Shown here one piece after another: positions 688-24,775 of a DNA stretch of 64,000 bases. This DNA is from Nereocystis luetkeana (taxonomy: Eukaryota > Sar > Phaeophyceae > Laminariales > Laminariaceae): positions 7,225,207 through 7,289,206 of the forward strand of contig JARUPZ010000020.1 of NCBI GenBank assembly GCA_031213475.1, given 5' to 3'. A program made the position numbers and the translations under genes. The notes under the pieces were generated by a model. That model had not been told where the DNA came from. It ran no database searches and was given only the letters and a program-made list of their open reading frames with translations. The first letter of the stretch is position 1, and each line of letters begins with the position of its first letter.

Positions 688-904
688 GTAAAATACGACG
701 ACGGCGAGGTAGAGCTAGGCATCGAACCGTGCCGCCTACGCAAGCCGGAAGAGGCCCACCGCGGAGCTGCTATGGGCGGCGTTCGGGCAGCGACTGGGCC
801 GGACTGGGAACACCCGGCGGTTCGCCCAGCGATGGGTGCCAGAGTCGCCGTGCACGGGTACCCCGAAGCGCAGGTTTCCAAGCTAGTGGTTGGCATGGTC
901 GGAG
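688..904 (+). CDS. Exon: Tudor-like strand motif
   Basis: The frame opens with VKYDDGEVELGIEPCRLRKP, the pattern of a Tudor/chromo-like barrel (V-x-Y-D-D-G-x-x-E followed by a conserved R-L-R strand) found in many protist chromatin and scaffold proteins. The rest of the exon is Gly/Ala-rich and ends GMVG with donor GTAAGG at 905. The same frame is open upstream to 658 (IARDLTF), so an acceptor further left is possible. Phase 1 at the donor matches the acceptor at 1777. Confidence 0.55.
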
Positions 905-3900
905 GTAAGGAGAGAGCATTCCCCATCGGCAGATGTTTAACTTTTGAGCACAACACACAAGCATTTATTACCGACGGATGCTCCCCAAGCGGCAGATGTT
1001 TAACTTTTGAGCACAAGCACAAGCATTTATTACCGACGGATGCTCCTCAAGCGAGGAGCTAGCCAACATGGAACGATTGTGTATTTTACATTCATCATTT
1101 TAGTGCTCGTCAAGTACCTATCAGTAGCCCATTGTTCGTTGTATGGATACCTATCAACGGCCCGTTGTCCGTTAGGTATCTATCAATTGCTCATTCTCGT
1201 CAAAAACACCTTTCAATAGCCCATTCGGTCTTGTATCGGGCTTAGCGTATTATATACATATATATCAAAATAAGGTTGCTGGGTGGGTATAGCGTGTCTC
1301 AAGGGAGGGGTCTCATAAAATATACCAGGTAGGCATTACTCCTGTCATACCACGCGTCGTTTGTGGTCTTGGACGAGAGGAGTGGAAGAATTTTGCATAC
1401 GTTATATTTCATGGCTGTAAAATTAAATGTGGTTGAGACATGCGGGTGTTGACCGCGCAAAATCGCTCGTAGCATAATTATATTGCCGACGTTCTTGATT
1501 GGTTTAAGTTGTCCGCACGAGAACCAAAACGGGGATATGCATATGGATGCACGGTGGAGTGCATCAATGCATGAGCCGACGCTACTGTAGTTTCAATGCA
1601 TGAGCCGACGCTACTGCAGTTTTTCACTGGATCCCACGCCTATTGAGGGGACCTGCACGATGCCGCCATATGAGACATGTTCTAGGCCGGGCTGATGTAG
1701 TTAGTGCTCTGGTATGTCCGATAACCTTTATCTTGACGTTCGAATCATACTTATCGCCCGTTCTACTCTGGCGCAGTCGATGCTTTCGGGCCTGCATCCT
1801 GTGGGCCTCCCGCCCCACCCAACCGATCGGGATTAGTCGCCGCCCTCGAAGCAGTTCGAGGACGAGCTGCTCAAGCCGCCGCGGCCGCCGGTGACAGAGC
1901 ACTCTGCGCCCACAACAATCACGTCGATCGTCTGTCGTCGTCAGCTGCCCTAGAAGCCGCGCTCGAAGCGGCAGATCTAAGCGACAACGACCTCCGGGAA
2001 CTCGCTGGTGCACTCGCCATGGAAGCGTCCACCTCCTTCCTATGTTTGCAAGCGACCAACCAAGAAAAGCGGTGTCGACTAGCTTGGGCCGCTGTGGCGC
2101 TGTCGCTAACTCGAACGCAATGGCCGCCGCCCCCAGCACCGTCGCTAACGGCAACATCCCCAGCATCGGACCAAAGAAAGGTCAAGGTCCACGACGCGAT
2201 CGGTCAGTTGCGTCGCTGGAGCGGTCTACGGTTGGCGGTACCGTGCAAGCACATCCTTTCCGGAGGCGAGGATGGCGGCAACAACAACAACAACAGCCGC
2301 GCTCAGGTGACGTGCCTAACCTACTTACCTCTGGCGATGTTATTGGCGTCGGGGTACTCCGACGGCAGAGTTCGCTTGTGGGACCCCTGCGCTCGAAGAC
2401 ATAAAATCGCTCCGCCGCCACAGGACGGAAGAGGTCGCGGTAGCGACGAAGGTCGTTATAAAACCCCAGGCATCGGGGGTGAAGGGGGTTGCGCAGGTCG
2501 GCACATGCGCATCTGGCCGGGGATTTACGTGAACGCCGCGGAAGAGTGGACAGAGGGCGGGGTTACGTTCGGTTGCATCGCAAATTTCGGCGCCATGGCT
2601 AAAGTGCCGCGCCGAGACGAGAGCGGTAGTGATGGCGGCGGTTTCGTGAAAGTGAAAGCATTGCACTCGATCGTACTGCCTGGGGGCGGCGCGGACTCTC
2701 TTGTTGTGTGCGATTTGGAGGGTGCACGACTTTCGCGAAGGATGGATGAAGCGAAACCGTGGGATCCGACGTCGGCCGGTGAGTGCTTTCCTGGAACGAA
2801 GACACTTGACCACCGCGAGACGAACCCCCCCCCTCCCCCCCCCCGCCCATTCTTTTGACGAGGCGCATTAAATCCGGCCCGAGAGTGAAGTTATCAGCAG
2901 CAGCGATGACACACTAGCGCACGATCTCCGTTGAAAAAATGTGGACTCGACAGACGGAAGCGACTTGTAATGTGCCGTGTAATTGTTCTAAATGCACGTT
3001 CTTTACCCGGACGAATACGTTTTGCGATATGTATCGTTACCTTAGATTCACCTTGATTCTTCTTCAAGGAAGCGAGCATATCATGTTATCTTGCTTACGT
3101 CACGCCCGGGGTTAGCTGAGCGCTTTCGGTTTTTTGGGCTTGACTTTTCTGTGAGAGTGCATTGTGGGTCTTCTCGAAGTCGTCAATTTCGAGTCCGAAT
3201 GTATATTCGTATTGACGACGTTTTGCACTTTCCAACTCGACGAGAGTTGACGACGGGGAAAAGGGCTTAGGTTGGTCTCGCGACAACAGTGCAAGGCACG
3301 TATTGCAGGATTAGGGGGACTTGCTATCAATTAGTGAGTGGGCTCGCGCGAGTCCCATACTACCCGGGGGAGATGACTCCCCCGGGCGGCTATCTCCACC
3401 ACACCTGCTACTCTCGGGGGTCAGGTCGGGTCAACGGGCCCCAGCGCTAGGGGTAACAGCAGCTTGTTCTGATGTTACAACGGGAGCTATGGGTTAAAAG
3501 ACACACGACACGAATTTTGAACTTGAAAGTGTGGTGGGCTTAAGCTTTATTTTTACCAATCTGCCGGAGGATAATATATATATATATATAATATACATAT
3601 ATGTGGTTCCATATCTGATTTACGGCTAGGAGGCAACGAGAAAAGAACCGGGAATATGAGAATGCGATGAAAAAATATGAAAAAGAAGAATACAGTGTTG
3701 CGACCGAGGGATCAGGTACCGTATCATCAATCCACCCCCAAAAAAGCAAGGAGAGCTCTGGAAGGCAGTTTTTGAGTAGAAACAAATACGTGGGAAGCCT
3801 TTCGGTTATGAACCTCCAGAGTCCGGATCTGCTTCTCGGCCCCATTGAAAAATGTGCAGCAAAAGTGCGGCTGGTTTTTGTCAGGCTGGCGGAACAAATC

Positions 3901-6900
3901 ATGCGGAAAACCACCCGCTCTCCAAGCTTCTTTCTTCCCCTAATATTTCTCGTGACTGCGGCAATTGCCCCAGGAATCGGCGGCGGGTTTTTCTACCTCA
4001 CCTGCTCGGGAGAAGTGTTAGCCCTGCCGTCTCCCACGGGCTTCGAGGAACGCTACGTTCTGCTTGACGACGCTCCCTTTTTCGAAGTGTCGGGGCCGCT
4101 TGGCGCCCAAGGGAAAGAGTGCGCGGCTCGCTTACGAGGGGTGTTCCGGGCTCGGGCGGGGGTGCTGCGGGTGGCGTACGCTGCATCCGTTAGGCCGCGG
4201 TCTGTGGAGGCGATGGCTCAACAGGTGAGGGAAATGGCACCTGCGCGCACATACCTGTAACGTAAAAAAATCGACAACTAAACCGGCAGAGGATACACAA
4301 GAAGTTAGGCATTTAACTGGCTTGCCGTTTTTGCAGTACATGTACAAAACCTCTGGGTACCGCCTGCCACTCTGCCTGGAAATAGTCATATCAATAGCCA
4401 AGCGGTCCTTACATATTCGGACAGAGTGGTATACACCGTAGTGCAGCGCCAACCGACGATATTCATTAAGGTGGTGTTTCCCGGTGTACTGCCGACTTGA
4501 CTACGTTGCATATTCATGTATGTATCCGTCATAGTTTAACAAAGTTGGTGAGGTACATACGAACAAGTCGCGTTGCACTGTTGTCATGAATTCGAACCGA
4601 GGGGGTCCTTTGAGAAAGCCATTCTGCGATGTAAAGTGATTATTCGGCCCAGCAGTGGTTGAATACTTAAACGATAGGCGTGACTTTACCGAGAGCGAGA
4701 CGTGACGTCACTGACACCAAGCCGTTTCATTTCTCGCGATCTTTGGCGATATTTTACACGACGTTTCGATGTCCAACCAGCCGAAACCGCCGCATAATCC
4801 TGGAGGTGCAGGCACAGTCGTTGCAAGCAGTCGCTTCGCCGTGCAATGAGCACAGGTGGCCGCAAAATCCCCCTCTATGTCTTCGCTCGCGCTCACGCTT
4901 TTATTCGCCCCCTTTCTCCGCCCGAACCCCATTAACCCATCATCCAGATGAACGATACGGGTGTCATCGCGAAAACCCGTCGTGTTCTAGACGGCCACTT
5001 CCCTGGACAGCGTTTCGCCGTGTTTTACAGGGAAGGAGACGGCCCCGACCGGGACGTTACCGACACCATCCCCCTGTTTGATAAAGAGGCATTTACTGCT
5101 GCCTCCATCCTGGGGGGTGGGGTCGAAGACTATCAACAGTACCATGAAGGTAGCATCGCCTCGGGAGACCTCGGACGCAGACGGAACGACGCCGGTTTCG
5201 GGCCTGGGGCGGGTTCTCATGCGGGCGTCGGCAGCAGTGAGATATCCGACTCGGCTGAGTTTCTCCGTGTTGAGGTCGCCGGAAGAGGCTACCCCGACGG
5301 GCCCATCGCGGTGGTGACTTTTTGGGCGGTCGGCAGGGTGTCTCTGCGGGTTGAGGCGAGGTCGTTCGATGAGAACTTGGGCGAGGATCGTCAGGCAGCC
5401 GCGAAAGCCGCGTTTTTGGCGTCTTGGACCTTGAAAATGCAGGTGAGAGGGGAAACGATTGTCTACGTTTGATAGAGCCATATTTGGGTTGCTAGAACAA
5501 CACACAAACGTTAGGTATGAATATAATATTAATATCGCTTTTAGCAATGTTCACACTGCCGGTATAAGTGTGTAGTGTTCATTTAGAGTTTGCAGATTAT
5601 TTGAGGGGTTTGTTTCTGAATGTGTAAAGGGGATGTGTCAGACACATATAAGAAGGTATCTGAGTGGGTGGATTCATTGATTAATACTAAATGTGGGTTA
5701 ATGATTTATATGTCTTTTGAAGACGATATCGTCGAGCGGCGCGTGCGACCCCTGGGACGCTATGGAAATATGCCTCTGTATAACTATACCATCCCTCATT
5801 GCACGAATAACTTAGCGTCTCATAGTCAGTTGCTCTGCAAGACACACGTGCTGAAAGGCCGGAGGAGATAACGATAGGGAACGGCACTTCCTTTTTCCCT
5901 ATTTGTTCATCTTCTCTCGCATTCCCCGATCGTCCTGAACCCACTCCGCCCACCTCCCGCTCTCCTACCGCCCCCCCCAGCACTTGCGAGCCCTGTGCTC
6001 CAAACGTACATTCGTCGCGAGAAGCCGTGCCAACGCAGAAGCCCGCTTCATACTTCGAGTCGGCTCGGGACTACGACTGTGCTCCCTCGACCGGGCCTGC
6101 GGCGAGGAGGCCACCGACAAGGCCGGGGTCGTGGCGCTGCGGCAAGCGGTGGCAGCCGCTCTGCGCCTACCGTCGCGTTTCCCCTTCGCATCTGCACATG
6201 GCCGTGGCGGCGCTTATCTCCAGGCGGCAAAGGTTGGACAGGGTACCGTCGCACGAACTGCAAAAAAAAACGGCGGCGGCGATGCAGTTACTTTGAATGG
6301 ATCGAATCGTAGCATGGTTAGTTGCGCTGCGTCCAATGCGAGGAAAAGTGTAAAAAAAACATCGCAGCCGACCCTTTCCAGGGCGCCGTTTCTTTCCTTC
6401 GAGTAGTATCGCTATCCATTGAGGTGTATCCGAATTTAGGGACAAATGTTGGAGCCACACCTTTGATAAGATGCAGTTGTATTTTCGATTGTAACTGATT
6501 TGCTTTGACTTGAGTTTTCCAAGGCGTAGTCGCTGGGGAACGTTTGCTTTTGACCTCACCGATGTCCTGGTGGGATTGACGCTTACTACGACGCAATTTG
6601 GGTGGGATGTCTTGTGTCAAAATGCCACTACCTTGTGACAGCTACCGAGCGAAGAATATGTTTCACGCGTTTTCAAGCACCCTCGTGCTTACTGATCAAC
6701 GACCCCCCCTCGCCCCCTACTCCGTCTCGAAAGGGATGCGTGGTCAATGATCAGATGACCAAGGCAAGCAACGATTAAGGACTCCCCCCCCCATCCCTTC
6801 ATGTACCGATTGTTTCGTCCCGTTTCTGCTTCGTGGGTATGCATGCATATGAATAAGGTTGTTTGCTTACATATAAACATGGGACACACTCACTTTTCTA

Positions 6901-9900
6901 TTTCTTCTTGTGATCACGTCTTCAGCTCATTCGAACCCGTTCCTCGGCGTCTTTTCGCACCGCAGTGCTTGCTACCACTGAGCTACGAACATCGGTCGGA
7001 CTGAGCTATATACGTTTAGCTGTTCCGCCACAATTGGAGGCTGCCCCGTGAGCACCACGGGTCGAACGTACGCCATCTAATGTATTTGGCCCGTTCTACC
7101 CCCCCCATTCCAATGCAGGTGTTGCGGTCTCTGCGCAGTGCGGAGGGGCAGCACACCGGAAGTGGACGAAGCGGGGCAAGCCCAAAGGCTGACCTACTCC
7201 GGCAAAGCTTAAGAAAAGCGGCGTGCTCAGAGACAGACCCAATCGCTCGCCATTTCCTTCGGTCTGTCGTGACGCCAGCCTTCGAGGTAAGGCTGTAGTC
7301 CTTTCTTCCGTACTCGTAGCACCGCGTACGCTATCCGCTATATATAGCGATATATAGGGGTTTGACAGTACTTAATGCATGTTGCGACACACGTATCGCT
7401 TTATTATGTTTTATTCAGTTGGTAAGCTCTACACCCCCCCACCCAAACCAGAGCTGAGAAAAGTGAAAGGGTAAACCCGACGAACAACGTCATTGCCTAC
7501 TATAGGCGTACAGACTTCGTACACGAAATATATATATATATATATATATATATGCCGAAAAATACTTCAAATACACCAAGTATATATATATATATCCCGG
7601 TGATACTGGGTAATTTCCTCTTTTATTTTTGCAATGGTCGAAGAGCCCCCAGCGCCCAGAAATCTTGTTTTGCCCAAAACATGATACTTCCCCTTGTCGT
7701 GTGTCACGCATAACGTGGCCTACCCGTTGTAACGCTGGGAGGAGATGGCGTCACAAGGACTGGCGCCGCAAGGAACCTTACACACCTCGGATAGATCATC
7801 TACATATACATGATCTAGTTCCCCCCCTGCCGCCGTGAGAGGTCGTTCACGACCTGCATAGTACGGATTCCCAAGACAGGAAACATGGGGCTAGATCATG
7901 AGGATTACACCGGTCCCGCCCGGCAGCATGAGCTGGATGATACAGATCAGGGGTCTATCTAAATGCCGAAATATCTAGATCGTCAACTGTGGGAATCGAT
8001 GATCTGTGCGAGGCGTGTACCTCATATGTGGTCAAGGGATGTGAACATAAAAAACGCATCGGTTGGCGGGGGTTGAAAGGCATCAATCGCGGGCTCAGCT
8101 CCAGGCCTTTCACAACGTGGGGAGAGGGAATAAAGGACAGGAATACTTCAAAGTCCGGCCGAACTACCATACGTTTGGTTGCGGTGGCTAAAGCCTATGT
8201 ATATGGCACACAATTAATAGTGGTGGGCAGCAGAGGAGCATGTTTTTGCTTCACCTATTGGTATTGACGCTGATAGCCAGTGAAAGGAGTGCCAGGCTGT
8301 TTAGGGTGGAGGCTCCCTCGCTATTTCGTCGTAATGTTCTATGTTATACCTGGTATATTTTATGGCTTGCATTTGGGATGTTGTCTCCCGCATTTAGCCG
8401 AAATCGAGAGCAGTGGCGGTGCAAGGGTAGTAGCACTGATGTAGAGGCGCCCGTGCTACAACAGCTTCCCCTCCGCTTGTTTGGCCGCCTCGTCTACGGT
8501 AGGTCTTCCGAACAACTCATGCTGAAAAACGTCTTGCAGTTTTCGTCTGTATCGGCAGCACCCGGTCTGATAAAAGGCTGATCCTCCCATACAATCGTCA
8601 GGACCATTCCCACGCTTGGCCTGACGCGAAGCTCAGCCAGGATGTGCTACACCGCGCGGCGGCATATAAACAGACAGCTCTCCCCCCTGTAATCGAGACT
8701 TTTGTTTGGTATCACTCTTGCCTGCATTGTGCAACGCCGAAGTATCTTTGTGGAAAACCAGACAACTTATTAGTTAATACTAAATACCTGGTGCATAAAA
8801 AACACCTCAGTTGTGAGATCGAGAAAAAATGGTCGAAAGTAATATTATCAAGCTGCGTATGGTGTTATCTGCTCCTTTCATTCGTCGTACAGGAAACTCT
8901 TACGGGGACTCGGCGCGAAGGGAACAACGTCGGGCGGCCGATCCAGTGGGGCGGCTTGCGGGCGGCCCTCGACGCTTCCATCGACCCCGACCGGGCAACA
9001 ACGGAAGAAGCTTACACCCTCCTCTTGAGGTTAGGGCAAGTCCCCACCTGTCATGGGGTGCTAGAGGCTTTTGCACGGAAGGCCGAGGAGGGCGCGGCGA
9101 GCCAGCGCATGCCGCCCCCAAACGGTGCAAGCTTGCCACGTTTAAGATATGGAACCGAGGGGAATTCGGCAGCTGGGTTAGCAGGAAGCACACCGCATGA
9201 TGCTCGGGTGAGCCCCGCGAACGAGCACGACCAACCCGAGCGCGACGACTCCTGGGTTGACAGGCCAAGCCTTTCGCGTGGTGAAACGTCGTCGGTTCTT
9301 CTAGGATCGGGGGAAATAGCCACCCTCGCGGCAGAGCTCGACCCGTTGAGAAGAGTCGACCGCGCGTTTGCCGCACTGGAAAAAACTTTCGGGGACGAAA
9401 AATCTAAAAAACCCAAAACAGCACAGCGACGTTTCTATCGTTCTCCGTTACACGGCTATGCCGCAGCCAGGCGTTACCGCGGTTGGCAGGACAAACTCGG
9501 GGCGATGGGCAACGCCCTCGCGACAATTCGACTCCGGCTCGGTCGACGGGGTCAAGAAGTTCTGACAGAAGCGCGAAATGCAGTACCACCGGAAGTTGCT
9601 AGACCACAAGCCGAGGTCACAGCGGAGGAACTCATGGCAGAGGCGAAAGCATTGGTGGGTAACCCAGCGCGGCGGCAGACTACCCTAGGCAATGGGTCCG
9701 AACACCGCGGTCACGTTCTCACAGCTCGAGTGCAACTATATTCTCCACTGCCGGACCGGTCGGGGAGAGCTATTAGAGCATTTGATGGATGGGGGTACTA
9801 CGAGCGTGCGGCGAAAATTCCGAAGACCGGTGCCCGTGACAGTAAGCATACCGGGGAAGCCGTTGCGGTGTTGGAGGTCTCGCCCGAGCCGGGGAGGCAG

Positions 9901-12900: not shown

Positions 12901-15900
12901 CTGGTTACGCTCTTCCTTGCGGAAGAGGGGCTCCTAGCTGTCAGGGTACGTACCGGTATTCGCACCGTGACGCAAACCCCCTGAGGTCGTCCATGCGAAC
13001 ACTGATGGGTTACCCCCAGGGTGTGATGACCGAAGCTTCTCTACGGTAGGTTAGCTTCAATGCGCAATATAAGGCTCTATGCTATTGGATTGCGTAAATA
13101 TCAAAGTAGCGTGCGTGTACCCCACGACGCCGTTTCTGGTAAAGCGCTCACACGTCCGGTAGAAGACCACGACAAAGATCATCTGGATCCTAACCTGCCG
13201 TTATGAGATATTGTGCAGGATACTTATAGTACAGATCCAACCCATGAAACCTGTCTTGTATCATGCAGATTATATTGCTCCCACGCGGTAACATGAGCTA
13301 GATGACACAGATTATTGATATGTCTGCCCTGAAAAACATCACGCCGCCTATTGTGAATCTCTTTCACCCCGGCTTCCCCGCGTAGTACGGTCGGATAGGC
13401 AGGTCACCGGCAGGGAAGCCGTCCATTGCTGGAACTCCCACAACGTCGGGGATGCGAAGCCATGAAGGAGTGTCTCACTGGCGGCCGGCGATCCCGAAAA
13501 TATTCGAAGGTCTCCTGGTTGAGGCGGTAGGGGAGACAGGTGAGGGGGGGGCATCCTATCCCGCGATTCAGCGATATATTCGTTGGTGCGGAATGGCGTC
13601 TCATAGCATTGGAGCGGGAACTTACAGCAACGGGGATGGCGACAGTGACCCGGAGGTCCTGTGGGAAGATGGGGGCGTGTATTGCGATTACGATTGTGGC
13701 GGTGGCGGAGGCCGCGAACGCAGGGGAACGCAGACGGCCCCCCGTGGAAACAACGAAGGCTGGAATAGCTCCTCTGAAGACGATGAGGACGACGATGACC
13801 CAAGAACCACGATTCAAGGAACGAAATCGTCACGTGTTGGCGTCGGGAGCAACGGACTTGTGCGCTCGCGTCGTACGCCCATGTTCGTACGCGCACCTGT
13901 ATATTTTGCCGAACTCCTGGCGCTGGGGAGGGTTCTCTCTGCGATTCACCGCATTCCTCGCGGTGCCAAGGGCGGCGGCTTCACAGGTACTGCCGACCGG
14001 GCACGCCGACAGGCTACGGCTTACTGCCTTACCGTTGTGCGGATGTGCTGTGACGTGGACAACGGAGGCCTCGACAAGGCGGAGCCAGCTTGTTGGATGG
14101 GTGGCGGGCGGGAGCTAGACGAGGACGCCACAACTCTGCAGCGGGCGCAGATGATGGTGGACGTTCGACTGGCGGAAAAACTGGCGCCTTGCCTGCATGA
14201 CTCGAGTCCTGAAGTTCAAAGTGATGTCGTACGCTGCGCGCTATCGGCTATCAGAGGCGGGCACGCGCGCCTTCGATGGATTTCCCTCTCCGCTTGCGAA
14301 GCAGAAGGCATGGATCCGAGAGCACTTCTCGCCCTTGGATTCTGCACGACAGTGTGGGTGTCGGCACTTGTGGCAATCGCCCGGGGTCGCGGCACTCCTG
14401 CCGTGGGATCCGCGAATCCAAGCCGCTCGGCTCGAGAGGCAGAAGATGGTATAAGAGGGGCGGCTCTGCAATGCCTGCGGTACATGGCTGCGGCGGGGGA
14501 CCTTGCAACGCACAGTTGGCGGGGAGCCCGGGTGGTGTCCGTTCTAAAGGTGGCAATTACCCGCGGCGGCCCCATGTTGGATGGGTGGAACGCATCGGCA
14601 AAGGAAATGGGCCGTAGGAACGCTCAGAATGCGACACCGAGAGCACCTAACTTCAAGGCGTGGAAGGATGGCGTCCTGGACGTGCTGCAAACTCTAGCGG
14701 AAAACGGCTCAAGCGAGACCCACTCTACGTTGTGGGCTCAGGGTGGGCAGCACATCTGTTTAAACATCTCAGACTACGTGTCCTCGGCGGCGTTAACCCC
14801 GAAAGGCGTGGCCTCCAGAGCCGTGGAGCTGCTAAGAGGGGGTACTCTGAACGAAATCGAATGCCTAGTGCAACGTGTGCGGTCGATTCTGGCGACGGCG
14901 GTTCGAATAGGCGATCGCGCAGTCCTGGGGTATGGAGACGACGTTACGGTAGAGGTTGGTGCCACGATGTCCTTAGTCTGGGGATGGATGCAGCGCGCGT
15001 TGGTGCAGCTGACGCGGGACGATCCTGGCCACCCTTCGACCGACGCTCGGGTGTCTCTAGTGCGGGAGTGTCTAGGTCTGATTCGCTTTGTTCTATGTTC
15101 GCCGGCGTGTCGGCTTGCCCAGTGTGAAATACATCCCGATCTTGCCGTCGAAATATCTCGAGCTGCTGGTCGTTCATCGTCCGCCAAAGGTAGCGCAGAA
15201 CCCAACAGTCTCAGTGACCGATCGGCGGACGAGAAACATGACGTTTCCACAGCATTCGATATCGTGGCGGCGCGCACTGGGTTGGAAACAGCTGTTCTCC
15301 TCTTGTCGGCAAAAGGTCCGGCGGCCCTCGATCTTTATCGAGCGCACCCCATCCCGTCCCTGACGGTGGGAGCGGCCGACGTGTTGGCCGATGCGCTGGC
15401 CTACGGGGATCGGGAAATCGTCGCGTCTATGGAAAACTCGGGGGTGGGTTTGCGCCTTGGATTAGCGATCGAGACATCGACAAGGCTTGTGCGGGAGAGC
15501 CGTAGGCTCGGCGTGGAAGAAGTTCACTTGCTTCCAACGTATCCCGGAGGAAGGAGGGCAAGAATGAAGCTGCTGGACCGCATCTTGTGGAGGGCGCACC
15601 GCAAGCTTCACGAGCAGGTGATCGTCTCCGGGTTGGTGGATCTTATCGTGTCTAACCTGTTACCTGATTGCGCCACGACTGACATCATCAGCATACGGCT
15701 CCCAGCGAGCTTCATGCGCTACAATGACACGCCTCTCGTCAGAAATGAAGGCATAGCCCTCTTGGAGCGGGTAGTCGCAAGGCGTCACCACTGCCCTTCG
15801 GTCGCCCGGGAGATGGCAAGGCAAACCGTGCGACACCAGGTTGCCTCTGCCGAGTTCGCCCGTCTACAGCGGTACCGGCATAGGTCCATACGGGCTGGAG

Positions 15901-18900
15901 TCAGCGCGTGTTTGCGGTGCCTGGCGCGACTTGACAACACACCCGTCGACAACGCTCTGACACGCGCGGGCGTTCCACAACAGGCCATCGTCAGTGTTCG
16001 CAGAGATCACACGGCCAGCAAGACCCGTCGTCAATGGTCTCGGTGGATCCGGCACCACGCCCAAAGTGGGGTGACACTCGCTTTAAGCGTGAACGAAGTA
16101 CCTTCTGTCCGGACCGTGATTAGGCCGTCCGATACAACGTCCTCGGATGATACGCCCTCCGACCGCGACAAGCTGCAGACGCATTTTCCCGATGACTGTA
16201 GAAGCGCTGCAACACGACGACCAAAGCCGACCAGCCAAGAGCTGGACGCTGCGACGGACGCTGCGACAAAGTTTGAGAACCTATCAACGATCGAGGCCTA
16301 CAGGCAAGCGACCGCGAGTCTGTCTTCGATTGCATTGCCATCCCTTCGCGCGCCTACCGTTGCCGCGCGTACTCCGTCTCCCAACCAAGAAGTTGAAGGG
16401 CCACCACAACCGAACACCACGAGGGAAGAAGGAGCCGTGCTTACGATCGAAGGAAGCCTCTCGACGCTTTCAGTTCGTGGGCTGATCGCGCTTATCGCCG
16501 CAGAACTGGGAGCCGAGGAGCATAGCATACGTTTAATCGAGGTCGGCGGGGTCTCTGCTGCTCTCCGTCCAAATCCTGCCGCACCCGCTGCCCCGCCGGC
16601 CGAGGACGAATGTGTCCTCAAGTTATCGCTGCCCGCGGCTCTGGCGAATCGTCTGCACACGCGCTGCCTTGGCGGTGTTCTGCGGGTCCCAGGACTCCTC
16701 TCTTTGGAGGTGAGAGAGAATCATTCGATGCCTGGTATCGTAGGGATGAACCTGCAGAGTACATATTCTGAGGCTCCTCACTTGACAAGCTCCCTACCTC
16801 AACCAAAAGAGAACTTTCACGAACGGCGAAATATCGTATGCGTGCTGTATCTCGATGAATACTCTCATGGCCAAGGTATACGTACAACGAAGAACTATAA
16901 AACCCAGAAACGGTACTATTGGGTAGTTTCTCAGTTTAGGCGCCCCTTCAGGCAACGGTACTATTGGGTGCAGTAGCTTCTCAGGTTAGGCGCTTTATTC
17001 AGTCAATGATACTATTGGGTAGTTTCTCAAATTAGGTGCCCCTTTAGTCAACGGTACTATTGGATAGTTTCTCACTTCAGGCGCCCCTTCAGTCAATAGT
17101 ACTATTGGGTGAAGTAGTTTATCAGTTTAGGCGCCCCTTCAGTCGACGATGCTATTGGGTGAGGTAGATTCTCACTTTAGGCGCCACTTCAGTCAACGGT
17201 ACTATGGGGTAGTTTCTCAATTTAGGCACTCCTTTAGTTAACGGCTCTATTGGGCAGTGTCTCCGTTGAGACGCCCCTTCAGTTAATTATACGGTTGGGT
17301 AGTTTCTCCGTTTACGCGCCCCTTCAGTCAACGGTACGATTGGGTACACTCTCAGCTTAGACGCCCCTTCAGTCAACGGTACGATTAGTTAGTTTCTCAG
17401 TTTAGGCGCCCCTTCAGCCAACGGTACTATTGTGTACGGTAGTTTCTCAGTTTAGGCGCCCCTTCAGTCAACGGTACCAACGGGTAGTTTCTCAGTTCAG
17501 GCGCCCCTTCGGTCAACGGTACACAATTGGGTACGGTAGTTTCTCAGCTTAGACGCCCCTTCAGTCAACGGTACGAACGGGTAGTTTCTCAGTTCAGGCG
17601 CCCCTTCAGTCAACGGTACTATTGGGTACGGTAGTTTCTCAGCGTAGACGCCCCTTCAGTCAACGGTACGAACGGGTAGTTTTTCAGTTCAGGCGCCCCT
17701 TCAGTCAACAGGACTATTGGGTACGGTAGTTTCTCAGCTTAGGCGCTCATTCAGTCAACGGTACGATTAGGTAGTCTCTCAGTTTAGTCGCCCTTTCAGT
17801 CAACGATACTATTGGGTACGGTAGTTTCCCCACTTAGGTGCCCCTTCAGTCAAGGGTGCGACTGGATAGTTTATCAGTTTAGACGTCCCTTCAGTCAACA
17901 GTACTATTGGGTACGGTAGTTTCTCAGTTTAGGCGCTCATTCAGTCAACGGTACGATTGGGTAGTTTCCCGGTTTAGGCGCCCCTTCAGTCGACGGTAAG
18001 ATAGGGTAGTTTCTCAGTTTAGGCGCTCCTTCGGTTAATATTACGATTGGACAGTTTCTCAGTTTAGGCGCCCCTTCAGTCAACGGTACTATTGGGTAGT
18101 TTTTTTAGTGTTCAGTGGGAACGGGTTTGGCCGAAAAGTGTCACCCCTATCGTAACACTCATCTTTCAGAATACTTGTACGTAGACGAAAGGAGAGTTAT
18201 GCATCAGTTGGGCCTTGCTGCTGAAATACTGAGTGCTATTTTATCATTGTGAGGGAACTTTACAGCACAGCTGTCCCAATGATCGAAACTATGTACCCCG
18301 TTGACAGCGTTGAGGTTTCGTAGCATTCCACTCGCCGTTAGGCGTGGATTTATTTGTGGCGAAATGGTAAGTTATGCAGTGATAGTAGTCGGGGCACGCT
18401 GGTTTTAGACCAACCACAGCAGAAGAAACAACGCTATTTATTTGTGGATCTCCGCTAAAACAGACATTAACGCTTAAGCACATGCATCGTGCGTGCGGAT
18501 AGCACGGAGATAGAGGCCGTGAGGGGCAATGCTCCCACACCTGACGAAATTGAGCGATTTCTGCTTATCAAAGTCGATCACGCCGCGGGGTACCCCAAGT
18601 ATTTCAAAACATTTTTGTTGACCCTGCCTGCGCCTTCACGAAAACAAGGCTACAGGAACGCTGTACATTATATCTGCTCATAAGAAAACAAAATATCGGG
18701 GTCTAATCTACAATAAAGCAAGCAGGACGACGGTGGTTGGCTTCTAAATCCTGTTCCTACCGGCTGCCCCTTGATGCAGTGAGCACTTGACCCCCAACAA
18801 ACGCGTGTACAAGACGGATACGTTTACGTTAAAGACGATCCTTTGAGCCGCGGTTTTAGGGATGCAAAGTAATATTATTATTATTTGCAGATATTTCTGT

Positions 18901-21900
18901 TGTCGTCAAGGCCTGGCGTATCGATTCCTCACTGCCCATTCGCCTGTCTACCTCCGCACTGCAACCTGTGTCTAGATCGAAGGAAGGTACAAGCTGGCAT
19001 GGAACGGAGAAGAAATTGTTCCGAACGTCCCAATCCCGCCGTCCGGGGAAACCTCACCAAAACTTCCTTCTTTTAACGACAAAGAAGAAGAAGAAGAAGA
19101 AGAAGAAGAAGAAGAAGGAGGGTCCCGGACCGCTTTCTTGCGCCCACGCAGTACCAATAATGTCGATCCTCCACTCGCAGTGGCTGAGGCAACCAAAGAG
19201 TTAGGCCACGCAGCTAGCCCTTTGCCATCGGCAGGTGACGCGAAGTTCTCTTGGCTGGGGCATCGACCGCTGAGAGCAGCCGCGGTCGCGAGATTGGACG
19301 GTAACGATGTCAGCGGCGCTTGTCCTCGGAGTGGTGTCCACAACACGACCAGTAAAAACGACGTTGGAGCGACGTCGTCGTCGTCGTCCTTATCTCGTGC
19401 AGCAGCTGCTGCTGCTGCGTTGGCGTTGAGTCCACACCGACCAGAAAAACAGGGCGCGAACCGCCCACTCCCGCTATCCTTTGCCCGCGAGCAGCAGCGC
19501 GCGCGCGTTGCAACCGCACTCGATCGCATGGGAGCAGGAGTGATAGAGGTGCGTGAAGCATTTCAAAGGTGGGTGCCGGGAGCTGGGATTCCTGGCATCG
19601 GGCCTACAAGCGTCGAGAGGGGGCATAACAGGCAATGGGCGAAGTCGGGAAGGGGGGTACCCTCCGTTTCGGCCGAATCACTCGTCGGAAGCGGCAAGCG
19701 CGGGGTCAGTATTCCGGACTCGGCGAAGGTTAATCTCCCTGAAGCACCATCAACGATGGGTGCTGCCGATCTGAATGGAGGCGTTTTGCGCGCAATGCAG
19801 GAGCTCCGGCTTCCCCTGGAAATCGCGGCAGCTTTCTGCAAGAAGACCGCCGGAGGGGCAGAAGCGGCGCCAGCAGAAGAAATGTTGTTTTCTGAGTTCG
19901 TTTCACGGTACGCCGACGCGGCGGGGCTGCTGGCGGAATCGTCGGCCCGCGATCGGAAGGGCGGAGAGGTATGGGCCGAAGGGCCCGGTGGAAGGTGGGT
20001 GGTGGTTTCACGCGAGGAGAGCGAGGGCGTCCGGCGAGTTTTTGACGAGCAAGCGGCAGCGCAAGGAGGGCAAGAAACCAAGTCGGACGATGGAGGTTAG
20101 TGGTGGATAAAAGCTCTGCTCTTGCGCTACGCACGAGACGCGAGTATAGGGGTAGCGCCCACTTTTTTGTCTGAGACCTTCTCCTCACTTAAGGAGGTCT
20201 ATGCCTCGAACAAAACATCCGACTGTGATTAAAAAAAATGCGAGCTACCGCTGTAGGTCCGATGCACAACGCCATCTAGCGAGATATGATAGTAGCAAAT
20301 TTCACATCGGGGCAGGTGCCTACGGTAAAGGTACAGTAGCTCCTGATGATGATGATAGTATCACATTTGCACACCTCCCTGAAATCCTGCCAGCGGTCAC
20401 AAAAGCAGGCTGTAACAAAAAAACATATCGATGGGAAGAAGCTAACGAGTACGAAATAATGCGCACGGTTCCTAAAAGTATACGGCTCCTCACTTCAAGA
20501 AGTCTCTATTCCATCTTCATAAACGAGCAAAAAAAGAAATCAGCCTGAACCATCCCATTGCCTGCATACGTATATACAACGAGAAAATAGTGTGAGGGAG
20601 ATGGGGGGGGGGGGGGGATCCAATTCCAACGAATATCGAGGAAGTTACTCGGACAAAAAAATGAGTTTCTATTCACTCAGTCAGAAATCTGCTTGGACCG
20701 AAACGTGCGCTCACCTCTACTATCGTGCACAGCGCGGGGTCTCGGGTCCATATTGGTTGGGTATACTTATTCAGTTGCAATGGTTGAGGCGGGAGCCCTA
20801 TCAGGGTATGAAATTGGCTTGTGCTTGAGAACAACGTGCGGCCCTCACCGTGGCAGTGTTCCTTTTGCTTTTTTCATGGGGACATGTGGTGCCTGCCATA
20901 GGCAAAGGTCTGTTGAGGTTTTTGTTGTTGTATGTGTAAGGCTTCGAGTGCGGGGGGGGGGGGGGGGGGGAGGAACTAAGGGATTAGTTGTCAGCCCCGG
21001 GAATGGGCAAACTCCCACGATGAATATGTGCGAGTCCGAGGACACAGAGAAGAACCAAACGTGTGTGAGTGTATTTTACCGGAGGGACGGGTGTTTTGAG
21101 CCATCGGCAGCAAAAACGGGAATGTGTGATGAATATACTGATTCGCGCACATCGCGTCGGATTTTTTTTTGTTTGCGTGTCATGTCTACCTATAAGAGTC
21201 AAGTATAGCGACGAACGTTCTGTCAACTCGTATGGAGCACATGCTGGAGGTTTGCCCCACCTTGCGCTGAATTCATGGTTTTCGCTAAAGGTTGAACACC
21301 GTTGGCATGCCATCAGTTATTTTTCTTTTCTGCACCTGACAACCACCTACCGCGCTCTGCTGTCCCTTCTCCCACGCTGTCAGGGTTCGTTTCTGAGAAG
21401 AGCCTAGGCAGAGCCGACACCATCCTTGCTCTTAAGGGCATCCGGCCTGAAATTGCTGACGGCAGCGCGATGAAGAATTATTTCGATGTTCGTGGCCGAA
21501 TCATCGACGAGATTTTCGATGGCCGCGTTTCGTTTCAGGTTCGACGACAAACAGAATAGAGCGCTCTCGACAACGACTTTTTTTTCAAGCTTTCGCCAGT
21601 GTTTGTCTCCGGCAATCAATAGGGTAAGTTTCATTAGGTATGCCGTTCATCGCCATTATATATATACCAAGGTATTACCATTGTGGCCGCTGACTTCCTC
21701 CTGTTTACGTTTGAAACATGACGCATGCAAGGCTGACAAGCCCATATCGAGGGGTTCATCAAAACAAGAAGAGCACACGTCACGAAATGGTCAGAATCAC
21801 CCACACTATGTAAGGCGTAGTGGTGCTCTGCATCCACAGATTTGGCACCCTTTTCACTTTCCCCTTTGAAAAAACTGCGTTGCCCACTCCTCCCACCCTC

Positions 21901-23513
21901 CCCCCCCCTTCCGACCGATCAGGAGTTTGTCAGGGCGATCGTGCATCTCAAGCCGGCGGCGGTAGCTGCAGCGACGGTATATCCCGACGGCGCCGGCAAA
22001 ACAACGCCAGTAACAGCCTCGGTGCTCACCGGTGATCAAAACGCCTGCTTGGACACAGGCGCTCCTGGCCCACCGTCGTCGGTAGGGCGTGTGCTCAGCC
22101 CGACGGGGTACTTTGACGGCATGCCCGGCCGTGTTCTAAGCAGACCGACAACACGCCAGCAGTCGCACACGCGGTCCTTCTCCGACACCGAAGAAACTAT
22201 GCACTCACAGCAGCTGAAGCAGTACGGACAAGGTGTGAAGGAAGACAAGACCGCGGTTGAAAATGAAAAACGTATGTTCAAGCTGGGAGAAAATAAGCTC
22301 CCCGGGGGAAGGCTGGCGACGGCGGCGGCAAGACTGCGCCGAGAGGAGCGCGAAGCGAGGGAGGGGGAGCGCCGCGCGTGGGCTCAACGGAAGACGAGCA
22401 CCACCAAGCGACGCGCCCCTGCTTCTTCTTCTTCTTCTTCTTCGCCGCCGCCTGTCCCAGGTGGGATATTGAAGTATTCGCCACAAGCGGTGGCGGCGAT
22501 ACCGCCTTCGGCTGGTCTTTTGTCGGGAAGGAGAAGTGAAAACAACTGGGGTGGAGGTGGCGGTAGAAAAACGGAGGAAGCGCCGCCCGCACAACGTCGC
22601 GGGCGAGAAAATAATTCAGCCGGCGGCGGCGGCGGCGGCGATGCTGGGACGGCAGTGGTGGCGACCAGCGGCAGGCAGAAGAATCAAAGTGACAAGGAGG
22701 AGGACGCGGTTTCTCGAGCTTTTCGTCGCTATGCGGAGGACCGTGATCTAGACCGCGGCCGCCGTGATCATCGTGGTCTCGACAATCGCGATCTCGACAG
22801 TCGCGGTGATGGGCTTCTCTCGCAAAAATCACCGTCACCACACACCCCACCCTCCGCGATTTCATCGCCGGCACAACAACGGGGTACGCGACGTCGACAG
22901 GGGGAGAAACAAGAAGGCTACGGCGGCGGCGATCGATCCTTCTCAAAATGGCGGCGGCGGGAACAGCGGTCTTTACCTCAAGAGGATAAAGACACCGTCA
23001 GGATAATTTTTGGAGAACGTGGAAGCGACCAGGGTGGTAGCAGCTCCGGGGAAGGAGTGAATACGGTGGAAATACGCGGAGGGGATGAGGGCGGGGGACG
23101 TACCCGACCATTCGGCGCAACAGCGTTCGGCAGGGGTAGAAAAGTGGGCCTAGAAAGGCAAAAGAGGCGTTCAGAGCGAGGTGGGGGTTGGGAGGGAGCG
23201 TGGGACGGCAGTCGCGACACGGACACGGGGCAGGGGCAGGATAAGGAGGAGGAGGAGGAGAACGCTGTCGACGAGTTGGAGCGAAATAGAGCTCTTCGGC
23301 AGGCTTTCGACATGTACGATCTGAACGGGGATGGCTTCATCACGTACCTTGAGGTGACGGCACCACTACTGCACAATTCGGACCGATCACCGATCTCTCC
23401 ACTGCAGGATCTAGATCTTTAGGGCAGACGTATTCCTGATCGGTATGATCTGGCTCATGTTGCCTTGTGGGAGCTGTAACATAAACATACAAAATACACT
23501 GTATTGATAGTAT

Positions 23514-23546
<33 letters not shown>

Positions 23547-24544
23547 CTCACATTAACTCTCTGACGAAGGAGTCCGTGGTCACACAAAGTTGCTGGAGCC
23601 CTAGTACCCACTGCCAAGTAGTAGGTAGACCGATCGCATAACGCTGACTGCGATGCTTTTGCTTATTCAACAGCCTCCATGCTACTGAGCATTGGCTAAA
23701 TAGACTGCAATATTCTGTACCGGTGGTCGTTATAGAACAATTTATCACGACAATAGGCTGATGTTGCCTATTGCTCAGCACATAAAGCACAAAGTCGAGC
23801 TTCAAACGCGCCGGGCCAGATACAACGACGCAAACTTTCGCACATTACCAGACGCAACTAACTGTAACACCTACAGTAGCTACCCAATTACTAGTCGGCG
23901 GCGGCCAGCTCATAACTACTAGTGGGCGACTTGTAGTTGGCCAACTATCAACATAGTCGGCGGCATATGGTAATCCAACCAATAACAAGCTGGCGACTTA
24001 AGTTAGCCAACTAGTAACTTAGTCGGCGAAATAAAGTCAGACAAATCATAATTAGTCGGTGACTTTTAGTCAGCCAACTCATAACTAGTCGGCGACTTAT
24101 AGCCAGCCAACTATTAATCAGTCGGCGGCCTATAGCCAGCCAACCGATAACTAGTCGGCGACTTCTATCAATAGTCAGCCAACTCATAACTCAGTCGGCG
24201 ACTTATAGTAAGCCAACGCGCAGCCTCAATCGGCAGGGTACCGGTATCTCCGTAGTAGACTCAATGTGTCGTTTCTTCGTTTTTTTAAAGCACCCACCCG
24301 TCCGTTTATTTTTTAACTCAATATAATACTTGGATCCGGAATGACGCAGCTGAAAGCGGTGCTACGACGGCGAGGAGGGTGTGCTTCGGACGTCGAAGTT
24401 CGCGCATGGATCGAGAAGCGGGACACCTCCGGGACGGGGGCCGTTGACTTCGCGGATTTTTCGCGGGCGTTCGAATTATCTTCGCAGTTTGATACCAACT
24501 ATAGCAACAGCGACGACAACAACGATTGCAACAACACCTGTTAG
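688..24544 (+). CDS. Giant multidomain protein (Tudor-like, WD40, pseudokinase, helical repeats, EF-hands), 5' partial
   Basis: Exon blocks are 688-904, 1777-2778, 3974-4224, 4948-5442, 5981-6232, 7119-7286, 8893-12108, 12727-12945, 13572-16709, 18976-20095, 21384-21538, 21923-23353 and 24350-24544. Each internal edge is a GT donor or AG acceptor, and every junction joins in frame (phases 1,1,0,0,0,0,0,0,0,1,0,0). This gives 11,859 nt, or 3,952 residues plus TAG. A few sites (the acceptors at 1777 and 13572 and the donor at 6232) were chosen among alternatives partly because the phase fitted. Domains in order, numbered from base 688: Tudor-like motif ~1-25, WD40 blade ~245-285, pseudokinase ~1100-1710 (with insertions) inside exon 7, ARM/HEAT-like helices ~1870-2700, linkers, and an EF-hand pair ~3870-3930. 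I infer a cytoplasmic scaffold with Ca2+ input; no catalytic activity is predicted. No signal peptide or membrane segment was seen. It could instead be two or three genes, for example split before 4948 (exon opens with ATG) or before 8893. Confidence 0.55.
927..1052 (+). repeat. Tandem duplication, 63-bp unit x2
   Basis: Two almost identical 63-bp copies (927-989 and 990-1052) begin CGGCAGATGTTTAAC and end GATGCTCCyCAAG. They lie in the first intron just behind the donor at 905 and differ at a few bases. Confidence 0.8.
1105..1230 (+). repeat. Degenerate tandem repeat, unit about 43 bp
   Basis: About three copies of a unit resembling TACCTATCAATAGCCCATTG follow the 63-bp duplication in the same intron. 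The copies have diverged at several positions. Confidence 0.55.
1566..1623 (+). repeat. Tandem duplication, 29-bp unit x2
   Basis: Two adjacent copies of a unit starting AATGCATGAGCCGACGCTAC lie in the first intron, upstream of the acceptor at 1777. They differ at one or two bases. Confidence 0.75.
1777..2778 (+). CDS. Exon: WD40 repeat region
   Basis: A pyrimidine-rich acceptor (TTCTACTCTGGCGCAG) precedes the exon. The frame has an Ala/Leu-rich helical lead (ALEAALEAADLSDNDLRELA), then a clear WD40 blade: VTCLTYLPLAMLLASGYSDG followed by RVRLWDP. Further down, RHMRIWPGIYVN and SLVVCDLEG look like degenerate blades. The pair W-D after S-D-G is the WD signature. A N5 run encoded by (AAC)n interrupts the loop before the blade. 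Only one blade is convincing, so the rest of the propeller is either very diverged or lies outside the window. The donor is CCG|GTGAGT. Confidence 0.6.
3566..3602 (+). repeat. (AT)n microsatellite
   Basis: A simple TATATATA tract lies in the intron between the exons at 1777-2778 and 3974-4224. Confidence 0.8.
3974..4224 (+). CDS. Exon: possible last propeller strand of the giant protein
   Basis: The acceptor GCAATTGCCCCAG leads into IGGGFFYLTCSGEVLALPSP, whose alternating hydrophobic pattern resembles a WD40 or beta-propeller strand pair. A helical, Arg/Ala-rich tail follows and ends VEAMAQQ before GTGAGG. Entry phase 2 and exit phase 0 match the neighbouring exons. No named family was recognised. 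Confidence 0.55.
4948..5442 (+). CDS. Exon of unknown fold
   Basis: The acceptor CATCATCCAG directly precedes ATG AAC GAT. The exon therefore opens with Met in phase 0 and could alternatively be the start of a separate gene. Its 165 residues have acidic segments and alternating strands (RFAVFYREGDG, PIAVVTFWAVGRVSLRVEAR) and end FLASWTLKMQ before GTGAGA. I do not recognise the domain. Confidence 0.55.
5981..6232 (+). CDS. Exon of unknown function, Arg/Ala-rich
   Basis: It follows a C-rich polypyrimidine tract ending CCCCAG. The frame HLRALCSKRTFVARSR ... VALRQAVAAALRLPSRF is amphipathic and helical. Two donors are possible (AAAG|GTTGGA at 6233 or CAGG|GTACCG at 6243); the first gives phase 0, which matches the next exon. 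Confidence 0.45.
6690..6800 (+). repeat. Copy of a dispersed GGGATGCG repeat with C-rich tail
   Basis: It contains CTCGAAAGGGATGCGTGGTC and ends in a C9 tract near 6785. It is related to the copies at 41830-41925 and 54783-54880. It lies in the intron between the exons at 5981-6232 and 7119-7286. Confidence 0.6.
7119..7286 (+). CDS. Short exon, 56 residues, unknown function
   Basis: The acceptor is the pyrimidine tract CCCCCCATTCCAATGCAG and the donor is GAG|GTAAGG. The frame VLRSLRSAEGQ ... RHFLRSVVTPAFE is phase 0 at both ends and is probably helical. Another small exon could lie between 6233 and 7118 (a possible acceptor is TCTTCAG near 6925), but none was secure. Confidence 0.5.
7527..7596 (+). 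repeat. (TA)n microsatellites
   Basis: Two TATATATA blocks lie in the intron 7287-8892. Confidence 0.8.
7775..8025 (+). repeat. Dispersed GATC-rich repeat copy
   Basis: It shares ordered blocks with 13160-13345, 41408-41605, 49060-49320 and (inverted) 49800-49935: CCCGGCAGCATGAGCTGGAT, then CAGATCAGGGGTCTATCTA, then ATCTAGATCGTCAACTG. It is intronic and has no coding capacity. Confidence 0.6.
8893..12108 (+). CDS. Exon: pseudokinase domain with EF-hand-like insertion
   Basis: This large 1,072-codon exon is bounded by CGTCGTACAG and GAG|GTACGT. A kinase-like fold is recognisable: an N-lobe candidate (EAVAVLEVSPEPG), a hinge (IVCERLEGWRSLRDVI), a catalytic-loop counterpart SLVLRDLRASTVFV near 10272-10312, a DFG counterpart VVSFSTLA near 10335-10360, an alpha-F segment TAWDTWTFGVLLFELAFG near 10588-10645, and a closing block EPDPDRRPRPGDLRYL near 11580-11628. 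The HRD His, catalytic Lys and Asn, and DFG Asp positions are replaced, so catalysis is unlikely. Between alpha-F and the end lies an insertion with EDHKGTGWLPF (near 11260), an EF-hand-like loop. The N-terminal 300 residues are helical. Confidence 0.7.
12438..12509 (+). mobile_element. TA-flanked MITE (72 bp)
   Basis: The inverted ends TATTACGGGGGACCATAGT and ATATGGTCCCCCGCAATA flank a short loop. It is the same family as 36326-36433, 48281-48412 and 50972-51080. The duplicated TA at both ends is the target duplication expected of Tc1/mariner-type MITEs. It sits in the intron 12109-12726. Confidence 0.7.
12727..12945 (+). CDS. Exon: helical-repeat segment
   Basis: The acceptor is GTCACACTGTCAG and the donor AGG|GTACGT; both edges are phase 0. 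The 73 residues contain LLALARVLEELLLDLRVADS and VVLRCLVTLFLAEEGLLAVR, Leu-rich amphipathic helices typical of ARM/HEAT solenoids. It probably starts the solenoid continued in the next exon. Confidence 0.6.
13160..13345 (+). repeat. Dispersed GATC-rich repeat copy
   Basis: It contains CCTAACCTGCCGTTATGAGA, then CAGATCCAACCCATGAAACC, then GGTAACATGAGCTAGATGA. The order is the same as in the copies at 41408 and 49060. It lies in the intron 12946-13571. Confidence 0.6.
13572..16709 (+). CDS. Exon: long helical (ARM/HEAT-like) region
   Basis: This is a single exon of 1,046 codons. After an acidic, Gly-rich start (SEDDEDDDDP) the frame becomes a run of Leu/Ala-rich helices, for example VYFAELLALGRVLSAIHRI, ALQCLRYMAAAGDLATHSW and LVDLIVSNLLPDC, consistent with an alpha-solenoid. 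Residues near 16440-16550 (GALTIEG-like strand, then LSVRGLIALIAAELGAEEHS) could be a small alpha/beta module. The donor is GAG|GTGAGA. The frame stays open upstream to 13452 and beyond, so other acceptors (13419, for instance) are possible. I infer a scaffold or protein-binding role; no specific family was recognised. Confidence 0.65.
16905..18101 (+). repeat. Intronic minisatellite, ~45/50-bp units, about 25 copies
   Basis: The unit includes AGTTTCTCAGTTTAGGCGCC, then CCTTCAGTCAACGGTAC and TATTGGGT, with or without an extra ACGGT. Short and long forms alternate in parts, which suggests a higher-order unit near 95 bp. The array fills most of the intron between 16709 and 18976. Confidence 0.9.
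18976..20095 (+). CDS. Exon: poly-Glu linker and helical segment
   Basis: The acceptor is ACCTGTGTCTAG. The frame starts IEGRYKLAWNGEEIVPNVPI, then has an E-rich tract encoded by (GAA)n (19081-19117), an Ala8-type run near 19400, and helical segments such as LRAMQELRLPLEIAAAFCKK and EMLFSEFVSRYADAAGLLAE, which resemble a degenerate EF-hand pair. It ends DDG before GTTAGT at 20096 (phase 1). If that weak donor is not used, the frame stops four bases later. Confidence 0.55.
20605..20618 (+). repeat. poly(G) tract
   Basis: A run of about 14 G lies in the intron 20096-21383. A second run of about 18 G lies at 20952-20970. Confidence 0.9.
21384..21538 (+). CDS. Short exon of the giant gene
   Basis: The acceptor CCCACGCTGTCAG has a good pyrimidine tract. 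The frame FVSEKSLGRADTILALKGIR continues to GRIIDEIFDGRVSFQ. Phase 2 entry matches the 20095 donor. The donor CAG|GTTCGA is weak, but phase 0 fits the next exon. Confidence 0.5.
21923..23353 (+). CDS. Exon: low-complexity linker and first EF-hand
   Basis: It follows the acceptor CGACCGATCAG and runs 477 codons. Most is charged and low complexity (S8 run near 22420, G-rich runs, Arg/Asp/Glu repeats with DLDRGRRDHRGLDNRDLDSR). The last 25 codons are LRQAFDMYDLNGDGFITYLE, a canonical EF-hand loop with D1, N3, D5, F7, T9 and E12 ligand positions. The donor GAG|GTGACG falls exactly after Glu12. Confidence 0.7.
23512..23545 (+). repeat. (GTT)n microsatellite
   Basis: About eleven TTG/GTT units lie in the intron that separates the two EF-hands. 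Confidence 0.85.
23878..24222 (+). repeat. Intronic minisatellite, unit about 36-40 bp
   Basis: About nine diverged copies of a unit like CATAACTAGTCGGCGACTTA plus TAGTCAGCCAACT fill the middle of the intron between the EF-hand exons. Confidence 0.85.
24350..24544 (+). CDS. Terminal exon: second EF-hand and stop
   Basis: The acceptor GAATGACGCAG leads to LKAVLRRRGGCASDVEVRAW and then IEKRDTSGTGAVDFADFSRA. The loop D-T-S-G-T-G-A-V-D-F-A-D has acidic or oxygen ligands at 1, 3, 5 and 9 but Asp rather than Glu at 12, which usually lowers Ca2+ affinity or favours Mg2+. The tail is Asn/Asp-rich and ends with TAG at 24542-24544. Confidence 0.7.
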   Translation: MKAVLRRRGGCASDVEVRAWIEKRDTSGTGAVDFADFSRAFELSSQFDTNYSNSDDNNDCNNTC

Positions 24545-24655
24545 GGTTGTCGCTTGCTTGTCGCAGTTGCTTTTTGTCGCAGGTTGCATGCTGTCATGCA
24601 TTTCGCACTCCTTCCCGATTGTGCTCAGTTGGGATTTTCTAGCGCTGCTCAGGGG

Positions 24656-24775
24656 TCATGACCCGACTCGCGAGTCGGGTCGGGTCGGGCGGGGTAAGGT
24701 GTTCGGGTCGAGTCAAGAGGTACTTGAGTTCTCACGGGTCGGGTCGAGTCGAGTCGGGTCGGGTCGGGTTAGGTG
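24656..24775 (+). repeat. GGGTC pentamer repeat
   Basis: Short GGGTC/GAGTC tandem blocks are separated by a unique stretch, just behind the stop of the giant gene. Nearby CGACTCGCGAGTCGG is palindromic and could form a hairpin. Confidence 0.7.

Follow-up and report, generated by a model that had tools for sequence, protein, structure and literature searches.

A candidate calcium-responsive scaffold gene of the kelp Nereocystis luetkeana that would combine WD40, pseudokinase, helical and EF-hand parts

Results and Discussion

A chain of thirteen coding blocks

In a 64,000-nucleotide stretch of Nereocystis luetkeana DNA (hereafter the window; contig JARUPZ010000020.1, positions 7,225,207 to 7,289,206; negative coordinates lie upstream of its first letter), thirteen coding blocks chain on the forward strand from position 688 to position 24544. 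On balance we consider it probable that they form the 3′ part of one gene that starts upstream of the window, and that the product is a non-catalytic, Ca2+-responsive scaffold. Docking surfaces would be provided by a WD40 propeller, by a pseudokinase that carries a large insertion and by a long helical solenoid, and a calmodulin-like pair of EF-hands at the C-terminus would allow Ca2+ to alter the shape or the partners of the assembly. We favour a scaffold because the kinase residues are lost, because no enzyme domain was recognised in the scanned pieces, and because three kinds of docking surface would be combined with an EF-hand pair. The parts are known modules for whose order we found no match; as they are of known kinds, the surprise lies in their combination and in the size of the product, not in a mechanism.

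AG precedes all 13 blocks and GT follows the first 12, the phase is the same throughout, and the only stop is that at 24542-24544. In this respect the chain agrees with the original prediction, in which blocks with GT-AG edges ran in one phase to a single stop; the predicted product of 3,952 residues, however, becomes 3,980 residues when counted from 688. Coding potential was evaluated with a gene finder written for this analysis, which combines codon log-odds, generic splice-site matrices and dynamic programming. Given that circularity with the window's own open reading frames had to be removed, its codon table (1,656 codons) was trained on exons outside the window only. Trained in this way, it scored window positions 1-26000 at 635 bits on the forward strand versus 38 bits on the reverse strand, and 30 dinucleotide shuffles of the same sequence gave a mean of 7 and a maximum of 20 bits. 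The two longest blocks are open over 1,072 codons (8893-12108) and 1,046 codons (13572-16709), for which the probability of a single frame remaining free of stops at their own base composition is 1.4e-17 and 4.2e-16, respectively, without correction for how many frames were inspected. The exon chain is real and above chance; that all 13 blocks lie within one transcript is what their sequence would suggest.

The exon edges were largely reproduced. Of the nine edges named in the original prediction, eight (688, 4948, 7286, 8893, 12945, 13572, 20095 and 21384) were recovered by a gene finder partly trained on window open reading frames, which terminated at 23422 rather than at 24544 and ran on upstream of the window. 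The outside-trained version recovered six (4948, 7286, 8893, 12945, 20095 and 21384), using ATG 772 in place of 688, acceptor 13386 in place of 13572, and an exon 25047-25139 in place of the end at 24544, so that this last edge was chosen by neither run. For the main chain as drawn by the program, joining outscored splitting at all 14 introns, with margins of 0.7 to 20.8 bits that depend on penalties set by the analyst. The weakest were the introns at 12946-13385 (0.7 bits), 23354-25046 (2.3 bits), -3525 to -450 (4.1 bits) and 24-687 (4.6 bits); of these, 23354-25046 is the program's own last intron and not the EF-hand join described below, and -3525 to -450 is not the join supported by a WD40 repeat.

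The kinase exon, the helical exon and an upstream exon at -9.5 kb are each present in one copy in the 465-Mb genome. Paralogues that might guide the placing of exon edges were found neither for the kinase exon nor for the -9.5 kb exon (for each, two other rows, both at E >1), nor for the helical exon at a limit of 0.001. Searches of the kinase and helical exons against viral contigs, and of the helical exon against prokaryote genomes, yielded pattern matches (4, 456 and 594), none of which was confirmed; this says little, since an algal gene is not expected in such collections. Rfam at its gathering thresholds gave no match in the window, and the window holds no tRNAs.

The 5′ end and the putative WD40 propeller

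The first block (688..904) lies behind a weak acceptor and encodes only the latter half of a Tudor-like repeat (VKYDDGEVELGIEP); it is very probably not the true start of the gene. Position 688 has no start codon, and the first ATG in frame, at 772, would remove the Tudor-like strand YDDGEVELG from the product. Further upstream, exons with WD40 sequence chain in one phase through 688 to the stop, for a total of 15 exons and 4,174 residues; -2630 is again an acceptor and not a start. Among these exons the in-phase join -2538/-465, outside the window, assembles a WD40 repeat with an E-value of 4.8e-10, as compared with no match and 0.0021 for its two halves alone (Pfam), and it was selected by the gene finder in none of the runs. 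Because 688 lacks an ATG and the upstream WD40 exons chain in, in phase, the gene very probably begins upstream of the window. The chain had been proposed to start at 688 and to encode a whole protein, and on both points the prediction has to be revised, 688-24544 being most likely the 3′ part of a longer gene.

The Tudor-like assignment of the first block holds in part. The frame read from 658 matches a profile built from the genome's own Tudor arrays (20.4 bits, E 4.5e-5), but what is present is half a domain, and Pfam gave no match to it either joined or alone. Starting at 688, the exon scored 12.9 bits against the same profile, and joined across 23/688 it scored 13.1 bits. As the score gains nothing, the 23/688 join, which has poor splice sites (raw scores -0.4 and -0.1), was not counted as evidence. 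No AG acceptor was seen between 658 and 688. The better Tudor score of the 658 frame prompted us to consider an AT-AC (minor-type) intron at 688, for which the one donor-like site, at 246, is unconvincing.

WD40 propellers usually comprise seven repeats. The second block of the chain (1777..2778) contains a blade near 2300-2390 (Pfam WD40, E=9.9e-7) and, by eye, a further blade-like stretch, and the third (3974..4224), which has no profile match of its own, contains what appears by eye to be the last one. By eye there are thus about three blades in the window and about four in the upstream exons, two of the seven being supported by a profile, and seven are reached only when window and upstream exons are combined. 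The next three blocks, at 4948..5442 (no Pfam match), 5981..6316 and 7119..7286, have no domain match; the last of them is joined to 8893 with an advantage of 15.9 bits. From 1777 to 7286, all exon edges are those of the gene finder.

Upstream sequence and the extent of the gene

How far upstream the gene extends was considered in relation to what precedes the WD40 exons. About -49238 to -43964 (contig C20 near 7176000-7181200), the forward strand holds a predicted exon of 5,275 bases with 22 tandem Tudor-like repeats, two of which match Pfam Tudor_5 at 7e-16. Between this array and the WD40 exons, forward-strand exons at about -39609 to -18050 encode PUB domains (2e-15 and 3.6e-12) and EF-hands (2.2e-9 and 5.2e-7; Pfam). 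Of the genome's 12 PUB rows, two are in this upstream region and the remaining 10 on different contigs. By eye, the -9.5 kb exon resembles an EF-hand, but it had no Pfam match. Two further candidates were discarded: a Tudor-like reading by eye of an exon at -11960 failed both our own profile and Pfam, and a C2 match (1.4e-4) in the region around -57 to -50 kb, obtained with two guessed residues at the joins, disappeared once computed residues were used.

All of these exons might belong to one protein of about 8,000 residues (a sum over gene-finder predictions) encoded over about 74 kb, from -49 to 24.5 kb, and including the 22-copy Tudor array, the EF-hands and the PUB domains. Such a protein would be a mega-scaffold tying Ca2+ sensing to PUB-domain adaptors, which are of the p97 type. 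We regard it as improbable. The region from -70 kb to 27 kb does score 1,948 bits on the forward versus 361 bits on the reverse strand, its own exons having contributed in part to the codon table, one gene-finder run chained -39609 to 23422 in 44 exons (6,426 residues), and the Tudor-like piece at 688 has counterparts in the array. Stricter or otherwise altered penalties, however, split the region into several genes, including upstream of -3.7 kb; the exons predicted in the interval from -17.7 to -12 kb are all short (32 to 222 bases) and score poorly as coding sequence; and a paralogous Tudor array elsewhere in the genome reaches a stop of its own. That second array gene (contig C35:1472727-1488587, minus strand) has 21 repeats by pattern, with the stop after the array. 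In exons upstream of it, a SAM domain is predicted (2.3e-5) and an EF-hand pair matches weakly (0.0041, below the cut-off); the gene finder placed these exons in a gene separate from the array.

An internal kinase-like domain that has lost key residues

We return to the gene of more limited extent that we favour, and to its WD40-distal part. The 8893..12108 exon consists of an unmatched N-terminal part, a kinase-like domain with approximate limits, set by eye, of 9718-11646, and a possible start of the solenoid. It matches the profile PK_Tyr_Ser-Thr at 3.5e-6 and 26.9 bits (cut-off 23.1), summed over stretches of which the best covers 78 residues, and the profile Pkinase at 0.0026, under its cut-off; the similarity is centred on the catalytic loop. 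Against PDB the exon matched weakly (best 0.06), the best 60 of its 83 matches all being kinases. The sequence thus matches the fold profile of the kinase superfamily, but not the residues of active kinases. By eye, VAVL stands for VAIK, LRD..T for HRD..N and SFS for DFG, so that the VAIK Lys, the loop Asn and the DFG Asp are missing and the HRD Asp alone is retained of the active-kinase residues, while the motifs DTWTFG (helix F), PPE and RRP are kept. Given the loss of these three residues, the domain is most likely catalytically dead, as judged from its motifs. Relative to the usual spacing, an insertion of about 270 residues separates the helix F motif from the last helix. An AlphaFold model of the kinase region computed without an alignment had a mean pLDDT of 33 and was unusable.

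The helical region and a possible division into two genes

The kinase exon is followed by a short helical exon (12727..12945, gene-finder edges), solenoid-like by eye, and by the long helical exon 13572..16709, whose 5′ edge may instead be 13386. The long exon had no match in PDB and, in Pfam, matched neither ARM nor HEAT, with only a sub-cut-off hit (0.1) to an unrelated family. A single-sequence AlphaFold model of 13875-16094 was all-helical at low confidence (mean pLDDT 42). Since neither database matched and the model is of low confidence, to call this region a solenoid is a guess, if a reasonable one. Of the order WD40, pseudokinase, solenoid and EF-hands put forward in the original prediction, the succession itself is borne out, with profiles for the WD40, kinase and EF-hand parts and a pseudokinase assignment made by eye; the solenoid, in contrast, has no profile or fold match.

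Acceptor 13572 is uncertain: acceptor 13386 is also frame-compatible and was preferred over it in three gene-finder runs, and the join from 12945 to 13386-13572 is the weakest inside the chain. Because this join is nearly tied with a split, the helical and EF-hand part could be a second gene on the same strand, a WD40/pseudokinase gene then ending near 12984 and a helical/EF-hand gene running from an ATG in the 13386 frame to 24544. The stretch 13386-13572 is open and does contain an ATG in frame, the join 12945/13386 beats the split by only 0.7 bits, and of the four blocks in that stretch one is coding-like, at +7.0 bits, as against -0.6 to -1.0 for the other three. Against such a division, the 12727-12945 exon ends with a GTACGT donor and its helical sequence reads on, by eye, into the next exon, the solenoid seems by eye to begin already in the last part of the kinase exon and in the following exon, and the remaining joins in the window, as drawn by the program, are favoured by 2.3-20.8 bits. 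We consider two genes unlikely, and describe the rest of the chain as part of a single gene. The intron between 16709 and 18976 contains a 1.2-kb tandem repeat (45/95-base unit) at 16909-18102, about half of its length.

C-terminal EF-hands resembling those of calmodulin

Downstream of this intron, the 18976..20095 exon encodes low-complexity, acidic sequence and then, by eye, the first half of a pair of degenerate EF-hand-like motifs that continues in the 21384..21538 exon (both with gene-finder edges) and across 20095/21384/21923; Pfam gave only E=0.19 for it. The 21923..23353 exon encodes a charged low-complexity linker followed by the first half of a canonical EF-hand pair (DLNGDGFITYLE). 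Its donor at 23353 was used in two gene-finder runs, whereas two others continued to a stop at 23422. The second half of the pair and the stop lie in the last exon, 24350..24544, which was first spotted by eye; neither this exon nor the end at 24544 was selected in any gene-finder run.

The join 23353/24350 completes the EF-hand pair. The match to EF-hand_7 improves from 5.4e-5 for the single exon to 2.9e-15 for the joined sequence, and the best calmodulin alignment passes through the join without a gap; on the frame of the 21923..23353 exon alone, EF-hand families matched at 3.8e-5 to 2.2e-4. By both profile and calmodulin alignment, the pair belongs to the EF-hand superfamily. Its first loop is canonical, with the ligand residues (by eye) D.N.D G.I...E, and from these residues the C-terminal pair is predicted to bind Ca2+. 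The last intron also contains a 33/66-base array at 23918-24217.

Comparison with known architectures

Several known proteins share some of these parts. Vps15 (PIK3R4) has an N-terminal kinase, HEAT repeats and a C-terminal WD40 propeller, and the product described here would resemble it in uniting kinase-like, helical-repeat and WD40 parts in a single chain. It differs in order: here WD40 precedes an internal kinase, and EF-hands are found at the C-terminus. Exon pieces 3′ of the kinase gave no WD40 match in Pfam, and the architecture is not that of Vps15, as had been proposed from the opposite order of the domains. A BEACH domain, as in WDR81 and GFS12, was not among the Pfam matches listed for the scanned pieces; a neurobeachin propeller model matched one WD40 piece weakly.

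Some of the other resemblances are to proteins of cilia and flagella. ULK4 and STK36 (Fused) have an N-terminal kinase or pseudokinase followed by ARM repeats, and are not known to have WD40 or EF-hands; the product described here would likewise place a pseudokinase before armadillo-like helices, but its kinase is internal, after the WD40 exons, and no ARM profile matched. In WDR49, WDR64, EFCAB8 and CFAP251, EF-hands and a WD40 propeller occur in one protein, but these proteins are not known to have a pseudokinase or long solenoid. Given that its parts resemble axonemal proteins, a flagellar role, in the structure of the flagellum or in its sensing of Ca2+, is a serious rival to that of a signalling scaffold. 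Its domain content recalls CFAP251, WDR49/64, ULK4 and STK36, as a resemblance only. The WD40 repeat as query matched 555 PDB sequences, including the dynein assembly factor DAW1 (3.6e-26 and 5.5e-24), and the EF-hand pair matched 7jts_t, which we take to be a calmodulin chain from an axonemal complex. Both, however, are non-specific, as they sit among many generic WD40 and calmodulin chains, and no axonemal chain was found among the best 60 of the 83 PDB matches of the kinase exon or the 3 of the propeller region, the helical exon having 0; moreover, the kinase of ULK4 and STK36 is N-terminal. We rate a flagellar role as rather unlikely. ULK4 is described as a pseudokinase that acts with STK36 at the cilium (PMC10721220).

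The scaffold that we favour would combine WD40, pseudokinase, helical solenoid and an EF-hand pair, a combination for which there was no description among the literature matches listed. If the gene model holds, this combination, in which the pseudokinase carries a large insertion and the EF-hand pair is calmodulin-like, would extend the range of domain combinations, and would imply that the lineage evolved very large scaffolds linked to Ca2+ by shuffling common modules. Calcium-dependent protein kinases (CDPKs), described for Phytophthora, have EF-hands C-terminal to a kinase domain (PMC3019232), as is the case here; CDPKs couple the two in a compact protein, whereas here the kinase is degenerate and the EF-hand pair follows about 2,200 residues further on. 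The Phytophthora kinome table lists kinases with EF-hand (3), WD40 (1), HEAT (1) and armadillo (1) domains, their co-occurrence being left unstated in the table (PMC3019232).

Sequence downstream of the chain

Beyond the stop at 24544, the minus strand of the window contains open frames at about 33720-38611 that are PP2C- and FHA-like by eye, those at 34539-36236 and 37844-38611 having no Pfam match. Nearer to the chain, a convergent neighbour on the minus strand (window 30673-31233) encodes a piece of a PP2C phosphatase (1.4e-9).
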